A DNA stretch of 64,000 nucleotides, from the NCBI RefSeq assembly GCF_000178975.2, contig NC_015064.1, positions 1,798,001 to 1,862,000 on the forward strand, given 5' to 3'. The DNA comes from Granulicella tundricola MP5ACTX9. Its GTDB lineage: Bacteria > Acidobacteriota > Terriglobia > Terriglobales > Acidobacteriaceae. Below the pieces are notes generated by a model that was not told the origin of the DNA, did no database searches, and saw only the letters and a list, made by a program, of their open reading frames with translations. The position numbers and the translations under genes are program-made. Positions 9,408 through 37,045 of the stretch are shown in pieces; positions within the stretch are counted from its first letter, which is position 1, and each line of letters starts with the position of its first letter.

Positions 9408-9425
9408 GGGCTGTTGCTGAAGATG

Positions 9426-9457
9426 AGCCGCCGCTGACTGCGGCGGCTTTTCTTTTT
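9426..9457 (+). terminator. Rho-independent terminator after lemA
   Basis: A perfect 9-bp stem AGCCGCCGC / GCGGCGGCT with a 5-nt loop, followed directly by TTTTCTTTTT. It ends the TPM-lemA transcript and separates it from the MgtE_N-CBS gene. Confidence 0.93.
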
Positions 9458-9495
9458 GGGTGGGTGGGGTAGGATTCGAGAAGGCGGATGGCTTT

Positions 9496-10767
9496 GTGAA
9501 CAGGCAGGCAAATCAACGGACGAGTGTTTCTGCGCTGATGGGCGTGGCGATCGCGGATGCGAGCGGGCGGCTGATGGGCCATGTCACGGAGTTTGCGGTG
9601 GCGCCTACGGTGGACGCGTGCCGGGTGGAATCGCTGGTGGTGCGGCGGAGCGGGGAGAGCAGGAAGGTTGCGCCGGCGATGGTGCGGGTGAGCTCGCTGT
9701 GCTGGAACGATGCGGGGAAGTTGCAGGTCGCGGATGGGGCTCCGACGGCGGTGGTGCTGGACGATACGGATAAATACCTGCTGCTGGAGCGTGATCTGCT
9801 GGATCAGCAGATTATCGATGTGCATGGGCACAAGGTCGTTCGGGTGAACGATGTGGATATGGTCTGGGAGGCGGGCGATGGGGATTGCGCGCTTTCGCTG
9901 CGGATTGCTGAGGTTGAGGTTGGGATTAGGGGGGCGGTGCGGAGGCTGCTGAAGGGGCTGCCGCAGGATGCGGTGGAGGCGCTGGCGAGCAGGGCGGGGG
10001 CTCGGGTGATTCCCTGGGATTTTGTGGATCTGATCGATCGGGATCCGGCTCGGCGGGTAAGGCTGAAGATCGAGCAGGATCGGCTCTCGAAGATGCATCC
10101 TTCCGACCTGGCGGACATTCTGGAAGAGCTTGCGCCGGCAGAAGGGCAGGCTTTGTTCTCAAGCCTGGACGAGGAGGTTGCTGCTGAGGCGCTGGAAGAG
10201 GTCGAGCTGAAGACGCAGAAGTCGCTGATCGAGTCTCTGGACTCGGAGACGGCGGCGGGGATTATCGAAGAGATGGACCCGGGGGCGGCGGCGGATCTGC
10301 TGGCGGAGTTGTCCGAAGAACGGTCTGACGCGATTTTGGAGGAGATGGGCGAGAAGGAGCGGCACGATGTCGAAGAGCTGCTGGAGCATGCGCCGGACTC
10401 TGCCGCCGGGTTGATGACGACTGACTTTGTGGCGGTGGGGGTGGATGGGAGTTTGGATGATGCCGTGAAGGCGCTGGAGGAGTTCGACGGCGACCTGGAG
10501 ACGGTGACGGAGATCTTTCTGGTAGACGAAGAGCGGCTGGTGGGGCAGGTGCCGATGGCTCGGCTGATGGTGACGAAGAGCGGCGGGTTGAAGGAGATTG
10601 CCGAGGAACATGTGGTGAGCACGGGTGAGGCGGAGAACGGGCGTAAGGTGGCGGAGCTGTTCGACAAGTACAACCTGCGGAGTCTGCCGGTGCTGGATGA
10701 GGATAAGAAGCTGGTGGGTGTGATCCGGGCGGAGCATGTGATTGGGTGGTTGAGGATGAAGCACTGA
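9496..10767 (+). CDS. Stand-alone MgtE_N-CBS regulatory protein with PRC-barrel-like N-terminus
   Basis: A soluble 423-residue protein with no TM segment. In order: a PRC-barrel-like region (about 1-75) and a second beta-rich stretch (to about 165), an MgtE intracellular N-domain (about 195-295; PSDLADILEELAP and repeated acidic helices such as IIEEMDPGAAADLLAEL), and a CBS pair (about 300-420). In MgtE channels these two domains sense cytosolic Mg2+ and gate the pore; here the pore is absent and an Nramp-family transporter follows. A start at 9460 would lie right on the terminator, so I use GTG 9496 with GAGAAGGCGG upstream. Probably a metal-dependent regulator of its neighbour (inference). 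Confidence 0.85.
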   Translation: MNRQANQRTSVSALMGVAIADASGRLMGHVTEFAVAPTVDACRVESLVVRRSGESRKVAPAMVRVSSLCWNDAGKLQVADGAPTAVVLDDTDKYLLLERDLLDQQIIDVHGHKVVRVNDVDMVWEAGDGDCALSLRIAEVEVGIRGAVRRLLKGLPQDAVEALASRAGARVIPWDFVDLIDRDPARRVRLKIEQDRLSKMHPSDLADILEELAPAEGQALFSSLDEEVAAEALEEVELKTQKSLIESLDSETAAGIIEEMDPGAAADLLAELSEERSDAILEEMGEKERHDVEELLEHAPDSAAGLMTTDFVAVGVDGSLDDAVKALEEFDGDLETVTEIFLVDEERLVGQVPMARLMVTKSGGLKEIAEEHVVSTGEAENGRKVAELFDKYNLRSLPVLDEDKKLVGVIRAEHVIGWLRMKH

Positions 10768-10929
10768 CGATGAGTTGAGGGTTAGGTTCAGGGTGGCGGG
10801 TTGGTGGGGTGAGGGGCAGGGTTTTGGGTTAGCCTTGTGGTGGGGACTCAGGATGATGCGTATGGAGCAAAAAGACGGTGGGCTGCTCTGTGCGGTTTGT
10901 GCCGGTTGCATCTTTGGGAGGGCTGACTG

Positions 10930-12192
10930 ATGGCCTTCTGGAAGAGCTGGCGGGTTCGGATCATTCTTTTCCTGGCGGTGCTGGGGCCGGGATTCATTAC
11001 GGCAAACGTGGACAACGATGCGGGTGGGATCTTTACCTACTCGCAGGCTGGGGCGGCGTATGGGTACACGCTGCTTTGGACGATGATCCCGATCACGCTG
11101 GCGCTGATCGTGGTGCAGGAGATGTGCGCGCGGATGGGCGTGGTCACGGGCAAGGGGCTAAGCGACCTGATCCGTGAGGAGTTTGGGCTGCGGATGACCT
11201 TTGTCGTCCTGATGCTGCTGGTGGTGGTGAACTTCACCAATGTGATCACTGAGTTCTCCGGCATTGCCGGGAGTATGAGTTTGTTTCACCTGAGCAAGTA
11301 CGTGAGCGTGCCGGTGTGCGCGGTGCTGGTGTGGGCGCTGGTGGTGAAGGGCGACTACAAGAAGGTCGAGAAGATCTTCCTGATTGCGAGTGTGTTCTAT
11401 ATCGCTTACATCATTGCGGGCGTGCTGAGCGAGCCGAACTGGCATGCGGCGCTGGTGGAGACGGTGAAGCTGCCGCCACGCAATGTGTGGGGCGATAAAA
11501 GCTATGTGTATACGACGGTGGCGGTGATCGGGACGACGATTACGCCGTGGATGCAGTTTTATCTGCAGTCGTCGATTGTGGAGAAGGGCGTCAGCGTGAA
11601 GCAATACAAGGCTTCACGGCTGGATGTGATTGTGGGGTCGATCTTTACGGATGTGGTGGCGTGGTTCATCGTGGTGGCTTGCGCGGCTACGCTGTTTACG
11701 CATGGGATCAAGGACATTCCGGATGCTTCCGTAGCAGCTCAGGCGATGAAGCCTCTGGCTGGGGACTATGCGTTTATTTTGTTTGCTGCCGGGCTGTTCA
11801 ATGCTTCGCTGTTCGCGGCTTCGATCCTGCCGCTTTCGACCGCGTATACGGTATGTGAGGGGATGGGGTTCGAGAGCGGGCTGGATAAGACGTTCAAGGA
11901 AGCGCCGTTCTTTTACTGGTTCTATACGCTGCTGATCGCGCTGGGTGCGGCGGTGGTGCTGATTCCGAACTTCCCGATGCTGAAGGTGGCGATTCTCTCC
12001 CAGGTGCTAAATGGATTGCTGCTGCCGGTGGTGCTGATCTTCATGCTGCGGTTGATCAACAAGCATGAGCTGATGGGGAAGTATACGAATACGGTTTGGC
12101 TGAATGTGGTGGCCTGGGCGACCGCGATTATCGTGATTGGGCTTTCTGCGGTGATGGTGTTCAATAGTTTGAAGACGGTGATTAGTGGGTAG
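10930..12192 (+). CDS. Nramp-family metal transporter with altered metal site (NRMT-like)
   Basis: A 420-residue, about 11-TM transporter of the SLC11/Nramp family. The first TM begins GPGFIT as in MntH, but the metal-binding DPGN becomes D30-A31-G32-G33, and the MPH of TM6 becomes T205-P206-W207. In Mn/Fe transporters the TM6 Met is a soft ligand that discriminates against Mg2+ and Ca2+. Its loss, with the neighbouring MgtE_N-CBS gene, points to Mg2+ (or another hard cation), as in the described NRMT clade; this is inference. The start has GGGAGG 8 nt upstream. A long imperfect hairpin follows the stop. Confidence 0.88.
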   Translation: MAFWKSWRVRIILFLAVLGPGFITANVDNDAGGIFTYSQAGAAYGYTLLWTMIPITLALIVVQEMCARMGVVTGKGLSDLIREEFGLRMTFVVLMLLVVVNFTNVITEFSGIAGSMSLFHLSKYVSVPVCAVLVWALVVKGDYKKVEKIFLIASVFYIAYIIAGVLSEPNWHAALVETVKLPPRNVWGDKSYVYTTVAVIGTTITPWMQFYLQSSIVEKGVSVKQYKASRLDVIVGSIFTDVVAWFIVVACAATLFTHGIKDIPDASVAAQAMKPLAGDYAFILFAAGLFNASLFAASILPLSTAYTVCEGMGFESGLDKTFKEAPFFYWFYTLLIALGAAVVLIPNFPMLKVAILSQVLNGLLLPVVLIFMLRLINKHELMGKYTNTVWLNVVAWATAIIVIGLSAVMVFNSLKTVISG

Positions 12193-12288
12193 CTAAAGCG
12201 AATCACAGAGGGCACGGAGGAAGAGAGAGGGCACAGAGATTTTCTGTGTTCTCTTTGTTTGCTCTGTGTTCTCTGCGGTTTGCTTTCT
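12193..12288. repeat. Long imperfect inverted repeat between convergent genes
   Basis: A left arm with CACAGAGGGCACGGAGG...GGGCACAGAGA and a right arm with CTGTGTTCTC...GCTCTGTGTTCTCTGCGG face each other across TTTT. They form an imperfect hairpin with arms of about 45 nt. It fills the gap between the convergent Nramp and Nudix genes and may act as a two-way terminator. Confidence 0.7.
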
Positions 12289-15654: not shown

Positions 15655-15785
15655 GGGTTGCGCGGCTAAGAACAGGCAACGGCAACTACGGAGATTCTCC
15701 GCTTCGCGCAGAATGACAGACCAAAACAAGCGACGGCAACGGCAAAGGCCACTACGGAGGTTCTTCGCTTCGCTCAGAATGACCC
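15655..15785. repeat. Intergenic repeats, family B (two copies)
   Basis: Two copies of a unit made of CAACGGCAA-rich sequence, TACGGAG, and a short hairpin around TTCTxxGCTTCGCxCAGAATGAC. The same unit recurs near 22.1, 40.5, 43.2 and 43.3 kb. Confidence 0.8.
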
Positions 15786-35697: not shown

Positions 35698-36097
<400 letters not shown>

Positions 36098-37045
36098 TTA
36101 GGTGCGGGGGCGGGCGGGGACTCCGAGGGCGTTTAGTTTGGCGCGGGCCTGGGTGGCTTCCGGGGAGCTGGGGAAGCGCTGGATGAGGGCGCGGAGTTCG
36201 CGGACGCCGGCGTCGGTCTGCTTGAGCTCTATGAGGGCCTGGCCCTTGTGGAGGTAGGCGGCGGGGATCTTATTGTTGTCGGGGAACTGCTCGAGGACGC
36301 GGTCGTAGCTGCGGGCGGCGGTTGCGTACTTGCCGGCGCGGTAGTCGATCTCGCCGAGGTAGTAGTAGGCGTTGCCGGCGAGGGTGTCGTTGGGGTAGGC
36401 CTTGATGATGTCGCCGAACTCGGAGGAGGCTACGGGGTACTTGGCGGCCATGTAGTCGCCGTAGGCGGACTTGTAGAGCTCCTGGGCTGTGGGGCCGTCG
36501 GCTGCCTGGGGGATGGCGGCGCTGGGCTTGCCGCCGCGTGTGGTGGTGGGAGGCAGGGCCGAGGTGGGGGGGATGTAAGGCTGAGGCTGGGGTTGGGCGT
36601 CAGGCTGGGAGGGGGCGGGAGAGCCGGAGGCCGGTGCGTTGTTCTGGAGGGCTGCGCCGATGGTCTGCTGCTGGCTCTGGACGTCGTTGAGGATCTTTTC
36701 AAGGCGGACCATGCGGGCCTTGATCTCGTCGATGGAGTCGTTGATGCCCTGGACCTGACCGGAGACCTGGTCGGTCTTGCCGCCCTGTGCGTTCTGCTGC
36801 GCGGCGAGCTGCTTCTGGAGGGCATCTACGTTGACGGAGAGACGGTTGACGCTGTCTGCGGACTGCTGGACGAGGTCTTTGAGGACGCCCATGCGCTCGT
36901 CGTTGGACTGCTGGAGGCGGGCGACGGAGTCCTGGACCTCCTGAATCTGGGTCTGGAGGCGGATGGTGTCTTTGCTCTGCGCGAAGGCGGGGGCGATGGT
37001 GAAGAGGGCGGTCATACAGACCAGGGTCAGGCGGAGGTTTCGCAT
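36098..37045 (-). CDS. cpoB: Tol-Pal system protein CpoB/YbgF
   Basis: A 315-residue periplasmic protein that in other bacteria links Tol-Pal with peptidoglycan synthesis at division. Signal peptide (about 1-23, ending PAFAQ), coiled-coil trimerisation region (about 25-130, with long Gln-rich heptads), a Pro-rich linker (about 135-180) and three TPR-like repeats (about 185-310: KSAYGDYMAAKYPVASSEF, AYYYLGEIDYRAGKY, AYLHKGQALIELKQ). Start at ATG 37045 (MRNLRL); the upstream frame is not conserved in type. Last gene of the tol-pal set. Confidence 0.9.
   Translation of the reverse strand: MRNLRLTLVCMTALFTIAPAFAQSKDTIRLQTQIQEVQDSVARLQQSNDERMGVLKDLVQQSADSVNRLSVNVDALQKQLAAQQNAQGGKTDQVSGQVQGINDSIDEIKARMVRLEKILNDVQSQQQTIGAALQNNAPASGSPAPSQPDAQPQPQPYIPPTSALPPTTTRGGKPSAAIPQAADGPTAQELYKSAYGDYMAAKYPVASSEFGDIIKAYPNDTLAGNAYYYLGEIDYRAGKYATAARSYDRVLEQFPDNNKIPAAYLHKGQALIELKQTDAGVRELRALIQRFPSSPEATQARAKLNALGVPARPRT

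Follow-up and report, generated by a model that had tools for sequence, protein, structure and literature searches.

An NRMT-clade carrier and a soluble MgtE-like partner are retained together across an acidobacterial class and show genomic links to magnesium

Can the cytosolic sensor of a magnesium channel be re-used to control an unrelated metal carrier, and which metal would such a pair import? These questions are raised by two adjacent genes in a stretch of the Granulicella tundricola MP5ACTX9 genome (Acidobacteriota, class Terriglobia; NC_015064.1, positions 1,798,001 to 1,862,000; 64,000 nucleotides in full, hereafter the window). The upstream gene, P0001, encodes a soluble relative of the cytosolic part of the channel MgtE, and the downstream gene, P0002, encodes an Nramp-type (SLC11) carrier with an altered metal site. 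A first-pass annotation proposed that they form a magnesium uptake system gated in trans.

The pairing is not a new discovery. Shin et al. 2014 (PMC4072509) named NrmT, reported that most members of the NrmT group adjoin a homologue of the MgtE cytoplasmic domain, and put forward a cytoplasmic feedback or chaperone role for this neighbour. The systems described there, A. capsulatum ACP_2976/ACP_2977 and C. acetobutylicum Ca_c0685, match the window in both genes and their order, although the C. acetobutylicum operon differs in having a magnesium riboswitch and a partner gene that is split in two (PMC4072509). The first-pass annotation took trans regulation to be unestablished; as a hypothesis it dates from 2014, whereas the pairing and its magnesium link gain support below. 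In the open-licence PMC literature, as far as its text was accessible, we found no later work on the MgtE-like partner of NrmT; the papers that surfaced there either count NrmT as a fourth class of importers or bring up Nramp in unrelated contexts. To the known carrier, neighbour, and feedback proposal, the present analysis adds class-wide co-retention, M-box riboswitches in one family (f4), and an inverse pattern with MgtE. Co-retention, the f4 riboswitches, and the scarcity of other importers make a specific question of the partner's role, which was left open in 2014.

Carrier and partner in the window

The two genes and their parts are as follows (positions within the window).

9496..10767, + strand: MgtE_N-CBS partner gene P0001, 423 amino acids (open reading frame check, Pfam, TIGR00400)
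9496..10020, + strand: PRC-barrel region at the P0001 N-terminus, approximately residues 1-175 (PF05239 in homologues, AlphaFold model, Foldseek)
10093..10398, + strand: MgtE_N domain, P0001 residues 200-301 (PF03448, E 1.5e-24; structural alignment to 2yvy)
10393..10764, + strand: CBS pair, P0001 residues 300-423 (Pfam; structural alignment)
10930..12192, + strand: NRMT-clade Nramp carrier P0002, 420 amino acids (PF01566, E 4.4e-95; EleNRMT match; tree)
11017..11028, + strand: alpha-1 metal-site motif D-A-G-G, P0002 residues 30-33, canonically DPGN (alignment)
11533..11550, + strand: alpha-6 motif T-T-I-T-P-W, P0002 residues 202-207, canonically A-x-x-M-P-H (alignment)

Based on sequence scores, P0002 is far closer to EleNRMT (structure 7qia, 377 bits) than to any MntH protein (best match, 96 bits). 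In a midpoint-rooted tree of 46 rows, a chosen subset that included 26 of 27 hand-picked carriers from the class (that of genome G139 was omitted because of a stop codon), P0002 grouped with EleNRMT, the carrier of an Alicyclobacillus plasmid, and the carrier of genome G191, which we take to be A. capsulatum; the MntH proteins stood apart. The NRMT-side branch had a support of 95/86 and was present in 93% of 200 bootstrap trees. Compared to the window, the carrier and partner of G191 are 71% and 53% identical, respectively, and the carrier motifs read DPNG...TxxA instead of DAGG...TxxT.

NRMT-like proteins have been placed as the sister group of canonical Nramps (2026 preprint, PMC12873925), and their signature is DxxG in alpha-1 with TxxA/T in alpha-6, replacing DxxN and A/CxxM (PMC8806188). 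P0002 carries this signature (D30-A-G-G33 and T202-x-x-T205) and lacks both canonical MntH/Nramp motifs, with DAGG for DPGN and TPW for MPH. An NRMT-like carrier without the soft methionine ligand, as the first-pass annotation described it, is supported by alignment, score, and clade. The second Nramp protein of the same genome is canonical and keeps DPGN and MPH. Across the class sample, DxxG was found in 109/111 carriers and TxxA/T in 100/111, with Ala (91), Thr (18), or Ser (2) at the position of P0002 residue 205.

The closest characterised relative, EleNRMT (7qia; Ramanadane et al. 2022, PMC8806188), shares 48% identity and the DxxG-TxxA/T signature with P0002. Its Asp55 and Glu133 correspond to D30 and E108, both conserved, and Trp occupies the first alpha-6 histidine position in both proteins, whereas the former methionine position is Thr in P0002 and Ala in EleNRMT. 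EleNRMT carries Mg2+ and Mn2+ (PMC8806188) and moves Mn2+ without protons (PMC12873925). In its accessible text, the EleNRMT paper mentions no partner protein, and the words 'CBS' and 'operon' do not occur (PMC8806188).

P0001 starts with a GTG codon at 9496, with a second possible GTG start at 9460, and precedes P0002 on the same strand with a gap of 162 bp. Its second CBS domain (residues 366-419) passes the Pfam cut-off and the match to the first is weaker. The TIGR00400 mgtE match (residues 194-417) falls under the cut-off, as expected for a protein that covers only part of MgtE. The N/CBS part has the MgtE fold (Foldseek E 6e-17) and superimposes on the MgtE cytosolic domain (2yvy) with a Z-score of 21.9 and a root mean square deviation of 4.0 Å over 235 aligned residues. 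In this alignment, the final residue, 423, corresponds to TtMgtE 256, and E258, D259, and the plug helix (PMC8104411) fall past the C-terminus. A profile search of the window genome for the channel domain (PF01769), which detects it in 9 of 14 control genomes, gave no match.

The N-terminal part of P0001 resembles PRC barrels. A PF05239 match (E up to 0.1) was found in 32/40 full-length homologues and in 17/21 N-terminal segments of homologues, and a Pfam search gave no PRC match in window P0001 itself. The AlphaFold model of residues 1-190 (mean predicted local distance difference test score of 89.6) resembles PRC-barrel structures in Foldseek, with CdpB1/B2 as best match (E 2e-5), followed by a single-domain PRC-barrel protein and reaction-centre H subunits (E 0.005-0.05); the TM-scores of these matches are 0.26-0.46 by query length. 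Accordingly, the MgtE_N and CBS pair without a channel and the PRC-barrel-like region, both noticed at first pass, stand, the latter through homologues and fold.

Co-retention in the class

To compare the distribution of the two genes, P0001 and P0002 were each used as a query against one set of 151 class genomes. Carriers above 380 bits were found in 117 genomes, and the next best match scored 236 bits. The partner was present in 116/117 carrier genomes and absent from 32/34 carrier-less genomes; Fisher tests on such counts take no account of kinship among the genomes. The three mismatches (G038, G049, and G136) are all located at contig ends: in G038 (82% complete), the contig of the carrier measures 3,827 bp and leaves <500 bp upstream of it (a weak P0001 match with E 2e-5 in this genome was not counted as a partner), and the partner starts at contig position 174 in G049 and 145 in G136, on the side expected for the carrier. 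Both genes are jointly absent from families f3 and f8, from G015 of f7, and from four f5 genera (g33, g47, g49, and G129 of g65), and G121, a congener of G129, has both. Two f4 genomes (G092 and G148; 84% and 77% complete) also lack both. The pair clearly recurs in other genomes, contrary to one of the outcomes that the first-pass annotation named as refuting its proposal.

Pair spacing varied (n = 116): 77 pairs lie within 300 bp (6-259 bp), another 25 share a strand at distances of up to 12 kb, and the remaining 14 are farther apart or on different contigs. The association holds for these 14 unlinked pairs as well. Gene fusion was considered as proof of contact and none was seen among carriers of at least 380 bits, because the longest reading frame around them (549 amino acids) is too short for both proteins.

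Beyond the class, other phyla are represented solely by an Alicyclobacillus fastidiosus plasmid (L113, NZ_CP104068.1), which places the pair in Bacillota. On it, an M-box and genes for a CBS-domain protein and an Nramp protein stand consecutively, with a recombinase gene on their upstream side and two transposase genes on their downstream side. At locus L237 (2630-6011), an M-box is followed by a divergent NRMT (DAGG, TxxA, 35% identity) and then by a divergent MgtE_N-CBS-like match (28%), so that the gene order is reversed. The carriers at two loci titled Rhodanobacteraceae (L034) and Bifidobacterium breve (L091) are 83% and 64% identical to P0002, respectively, and both records are probably mislabelled metagenome bins. 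In Granulicella rosea, a 360-amino-acid open reading frame (L033:1898-2980), which we presume from its look to be a CgeB-type glycosyltransferase, lies on the same strand between partner and carrier.

Riboswitches and other magnesium importers

The magnesium link proposed at first pass is supported by riboswitches before the partner gene and by the distribution of other importers. Of the 25 M-boxes found in 22/151 genomes, 17 precede the partner gene by 100-285 bp, and these all belong to family f4. The carrier comes after the partner on one contig in 13 of them; in the other four (G049, G088, G096, and G136) the partner lies at a contig end. A scan of 40 of 81 further loci located an M-box just upstream of the pair in two, namely the Alicyclobacillus plasmid and L095, whose carrier has 62% identity.

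The MgtE channel occurs in 8/117 genomes with the carrier and in 22/34 without it. CorA (29/117 with, 9/34 without) and MgtA (27/117 with, 5/34 without) are about equally frequent in both groups, so the inverse pattern concerns MgtE alone. No other importer was seen in 59/117 carrier genomes, including 29/63 of those at least 98% complete, and none in 6/34 carrier-less genomes; completeness does not exceed 90% in five of these six. In the window genome (100% complete), which is among the 59, searches with hidden Markov models (HMMs) found no CorA, no MgtE, and no MgtA over the cut-off. In the presumed A. capsulatum genome (G191), profile searches found no CorA and no MgtA over the cut-off; the family search (200 genomes) gave a single P0001 match there, with no search aimed at MgtE.

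These counts cover CorA at 100 bits or more (38 genomes) and MgtE and MgtA over their cut-offs (30 and 32 genomes) among the 151; in 14 control genomes, CorA was detected in all 14, MgtE in nine, and MgtA over the cut-off in two. One MgtE match under the cut-off (G081) was dropped, and partial MgtE matches in G053 and G082 were counted. Fifteen weak CorA-like matches (20.8-41.7 bits; 11 genomes over the Pfam cut-off) were excluded, 13 of which lie in open reading frames of 558-691 amino acids; if they are counted, importer-free genomes fall from 59 to 54/117 with the carrier and from six to five of 34 without it (hand count). The long frames with weak matches (22-42 bits) belong to 13 f5 genomes (e.g., G021:C1:4948771-4949097).

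A second NRMT-like subfamily with a DAGA-TxxA signature was found at seven loci (L238, L240, L241, L242, L243, L245, and L246), with carriers 33-35% identical to P0002; the sequence retrieved around them contained no match to the partner. Because four of these loci (L238, L240, L241, and L242) have an M-box 400-540 bp before the matched part, this subfamily is a further candidate magnesium carrier.

Proposed function of the pair and its alternatives

Taken over the entire class, the genomic evidence leans towards magnesium, and we consider it probable, on balance, that the pair represents the NrmT system in its acidobacterial form, i.e., a main magnesium importer with an MgtE-derived regulator. 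P0002, an NRMT-clade SLC11 carrier without the soft methionine ligand, would most likely be a main cellular magnesium importer, possibly passing manganese too. P0001 would be a soluble regulator composed of PRC barrels and an MgtE-type N/CBS module, most likely attaching to the carrier or to the adjacent membrane and restraining uptake once cytosolic metal suffices; an MgtE-like sensor would thereby be re-used on an unrelated carrier. Because P0001 ends before the plug helix, regulation of the carrier would require docking and not a plug helix, and the PRC barrels may be the docking part, by analogy with reaction-centre H subunits. A more far-reaching proposal is that magnesium uptake is an obligate two-part process across most of the class, in which the sensor half of the channel, joined to PRC barrels, controls a LeuT-fold carrier in trans and replaces MgtE, and in which a single step deprived the window-clade regulator of its inter-domain magnesium site. 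This we advance tentatively, as an idea about as apt to fail as to hold, and slightly more so.

Several observations weigh against a magnesium importer with an MgtE-type sensor. The genomic magnesium evidence conflicts in part with the sole experiment on a close orthologue: the A. capsulatum carrier gave full manganese rescue, its magnesium rescue was partial and needed low millimolar magnesium, co-expression of the A. capsulatum partner did not improve magnesium rescue further, and Shin et al. 2014 judged the carrier a likely manganese transporter (PMC4072509). At the window pair, an RNA family scan found no M-box or other riboswitch, and the 29 sampled f1 genomes yielded no M-box under strict filters. 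Another importer is present in 58/117 carrier genomes, and importer absence rests on HMM thresholds, with P-type ATPases of the window genome lying below the MgtA cut-off (best, 135 bits). The two genes are >300 bp apart in 39/116 genomes.

The metal-site residues of the partner belong to the same side of the balance. Site residues of MgtE were taken from PMC5882242 and PMC5529423, with numbering verified on the residues named there, and were counted in 116/118 partners (carrier residues, in 111/117 carriers). Window P0001 is without the Mg4 site, having G263 and H414 for D91 and D247 (Ser and His in G191), a site that is Asp/Asp in 90/116 homologues and lost at both positions in 22/116. These 22 sequences form one branch of the window's family (SH-aLRT branch support of 100), so the joint loss fits one event, and D91/D247 covariation was counted once and rejected as repeated evidence; H/E pairs in L097 and L100 hint at further losses. 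The Mg5 pair D226/D250 is N393 and G417 in the window, and Asn occupies the D226 position in 113/116 partners. At the ATP site, Y170, R187, D188, N203, and F227 are E, A, R, E, and L in window P0001; among 40 homologues, only the Alicyclobacillus partner keeps Y170, R187, and D188, and none keeps F227. The Mg6 residue D95 is kept (D267 in the window; Asp in 112/116), as is Mg7 E59 (E231 in the window; Glu or Asp in 79/116).

Thus, P0001 shares with the MgtE cytosolic domain (2yvy, 2zy9, and 8gpv) its MgtE_N and CBS pair (Z ~22) and equivalents of E59 and D95, and differs in the absent plug helix and channel, the added PRC barrels, the lost ATP-site residues, and the changes of D226 to Asn and of D91/D247 to Gly/His. 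The view that P0001 encodes exactly the Mg2+-sensing modules of MgtE therefore holds for the domains and not for the Mg4, Mg5, and ATP-site residues. Since one inter-domain metal site is lost, the threshold or ligand of the window-clade partner probably differs from that of MgtE.

The window-clade pair could instead have turned to manganese, or to both metals, with a carrier mainly for Mn2+ and a partner that senses manganese or something else. We regard this as unlikely, even though the A. capsulatum carrier rescued manganese and the conclusion of Shin et al. 2014 (PMC4072509) speaks for it. The apparent single-step loss of D91/D247 would fit as well, and so would the genomes that share this loss, where carrier position 205 is Thr/Ser in 15 of 22, the two genes lie >600 bp apart or elsewhere in 20 (the window is one of two exceptions), and CorA is present in 11; the f1 sample, moreover, yielded no M-box. 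Yet the window genome owns a canonical DPGN/MPH MntH and has no recognisable CorA, MgtE, or MgtA, and the presumed A. capsulatum genome is without CorA and MgtA. Mg2+ transport is reported for EleNRMT and the C. acetobutylicum protein and is weak for the A. capsulatum orthologue (PMC4072509, PMC8806188). Because EleNRMT carries both metals, manganese rescue is compatible with magnesium as the main substrate (PMC8806188), and the genomic and A. capsulatum results can be reconciled if the carrier moves both metals and expression in B. subtilis understates magnesium flux. The first-pass annotation had staked its magnesium proposal on the carrier not being one for Mn2+ to the exclusion of Mg2+; the judgement that the A. 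capsulatum relative is a likely manganese transporter, with partial magnesium rescue, goes some way towards that refuting outcome (PMC4072509).

The partner, for its part, may be no gate at all, and could be a metal chaperone, an assembly factor, or another type of regulator that is co-kept through the same metal response. Shin et al. 2014 (PMC4072509), the missing plug helix, and the frequent separation of the genes speak for such a role, which we consider improbable; against it stands the nearly one-to-one retention of the two genes, unlinked ones included, across several joint losses. The published co-expression test is indecisive on gating, because an inhibitory regulator is not expected to improve rescue at low magnesium.

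The main uncertainty in reading the pair as a regulated magnesium importer is the window clade, which may have been rewired, given its lost Mg4 site, lack of an M-box, often changed selectivity residue, and often separated genes. Thr/Ser at position 205 occurs in 17/30 carriers that are >600 bp from the partner or elsewhere and in 3/81 others; this count is real but clustered in few lineages, and the link was thus not used as evidence of its own. If a regulated magnesium importer is the correct reading, a sensor has been transferred between unrelated transporters, many acidobacteria depend on an NRMT for magnesium, and the Mg4 loss in the window clade offers a natural before/after comparison of metal sensing.

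Other features of the window

One further feature lies between the pair and the gene upstream of it, which we presume to be LemA-like.

9425..9449, + strand: intrinsic-terminator-like hairpin (consensus match only)

Sites matching this terminator-like consensus number six in the 64-kb stretch against 2.4 expected. The sole RNA hit at the pair, a mir-2545 match at 12197-12284, scored below the gathering score and was taken as chance. Dispersed repeats were found at 15714, 22090, 40459, 43157, and 43236 and at 496, 14196, 35907, and 41692; one of the repeats contains a GGGGGGCTGAAGCCCCCC hairpin. An array rich in AACGGC spans 35973-36104.

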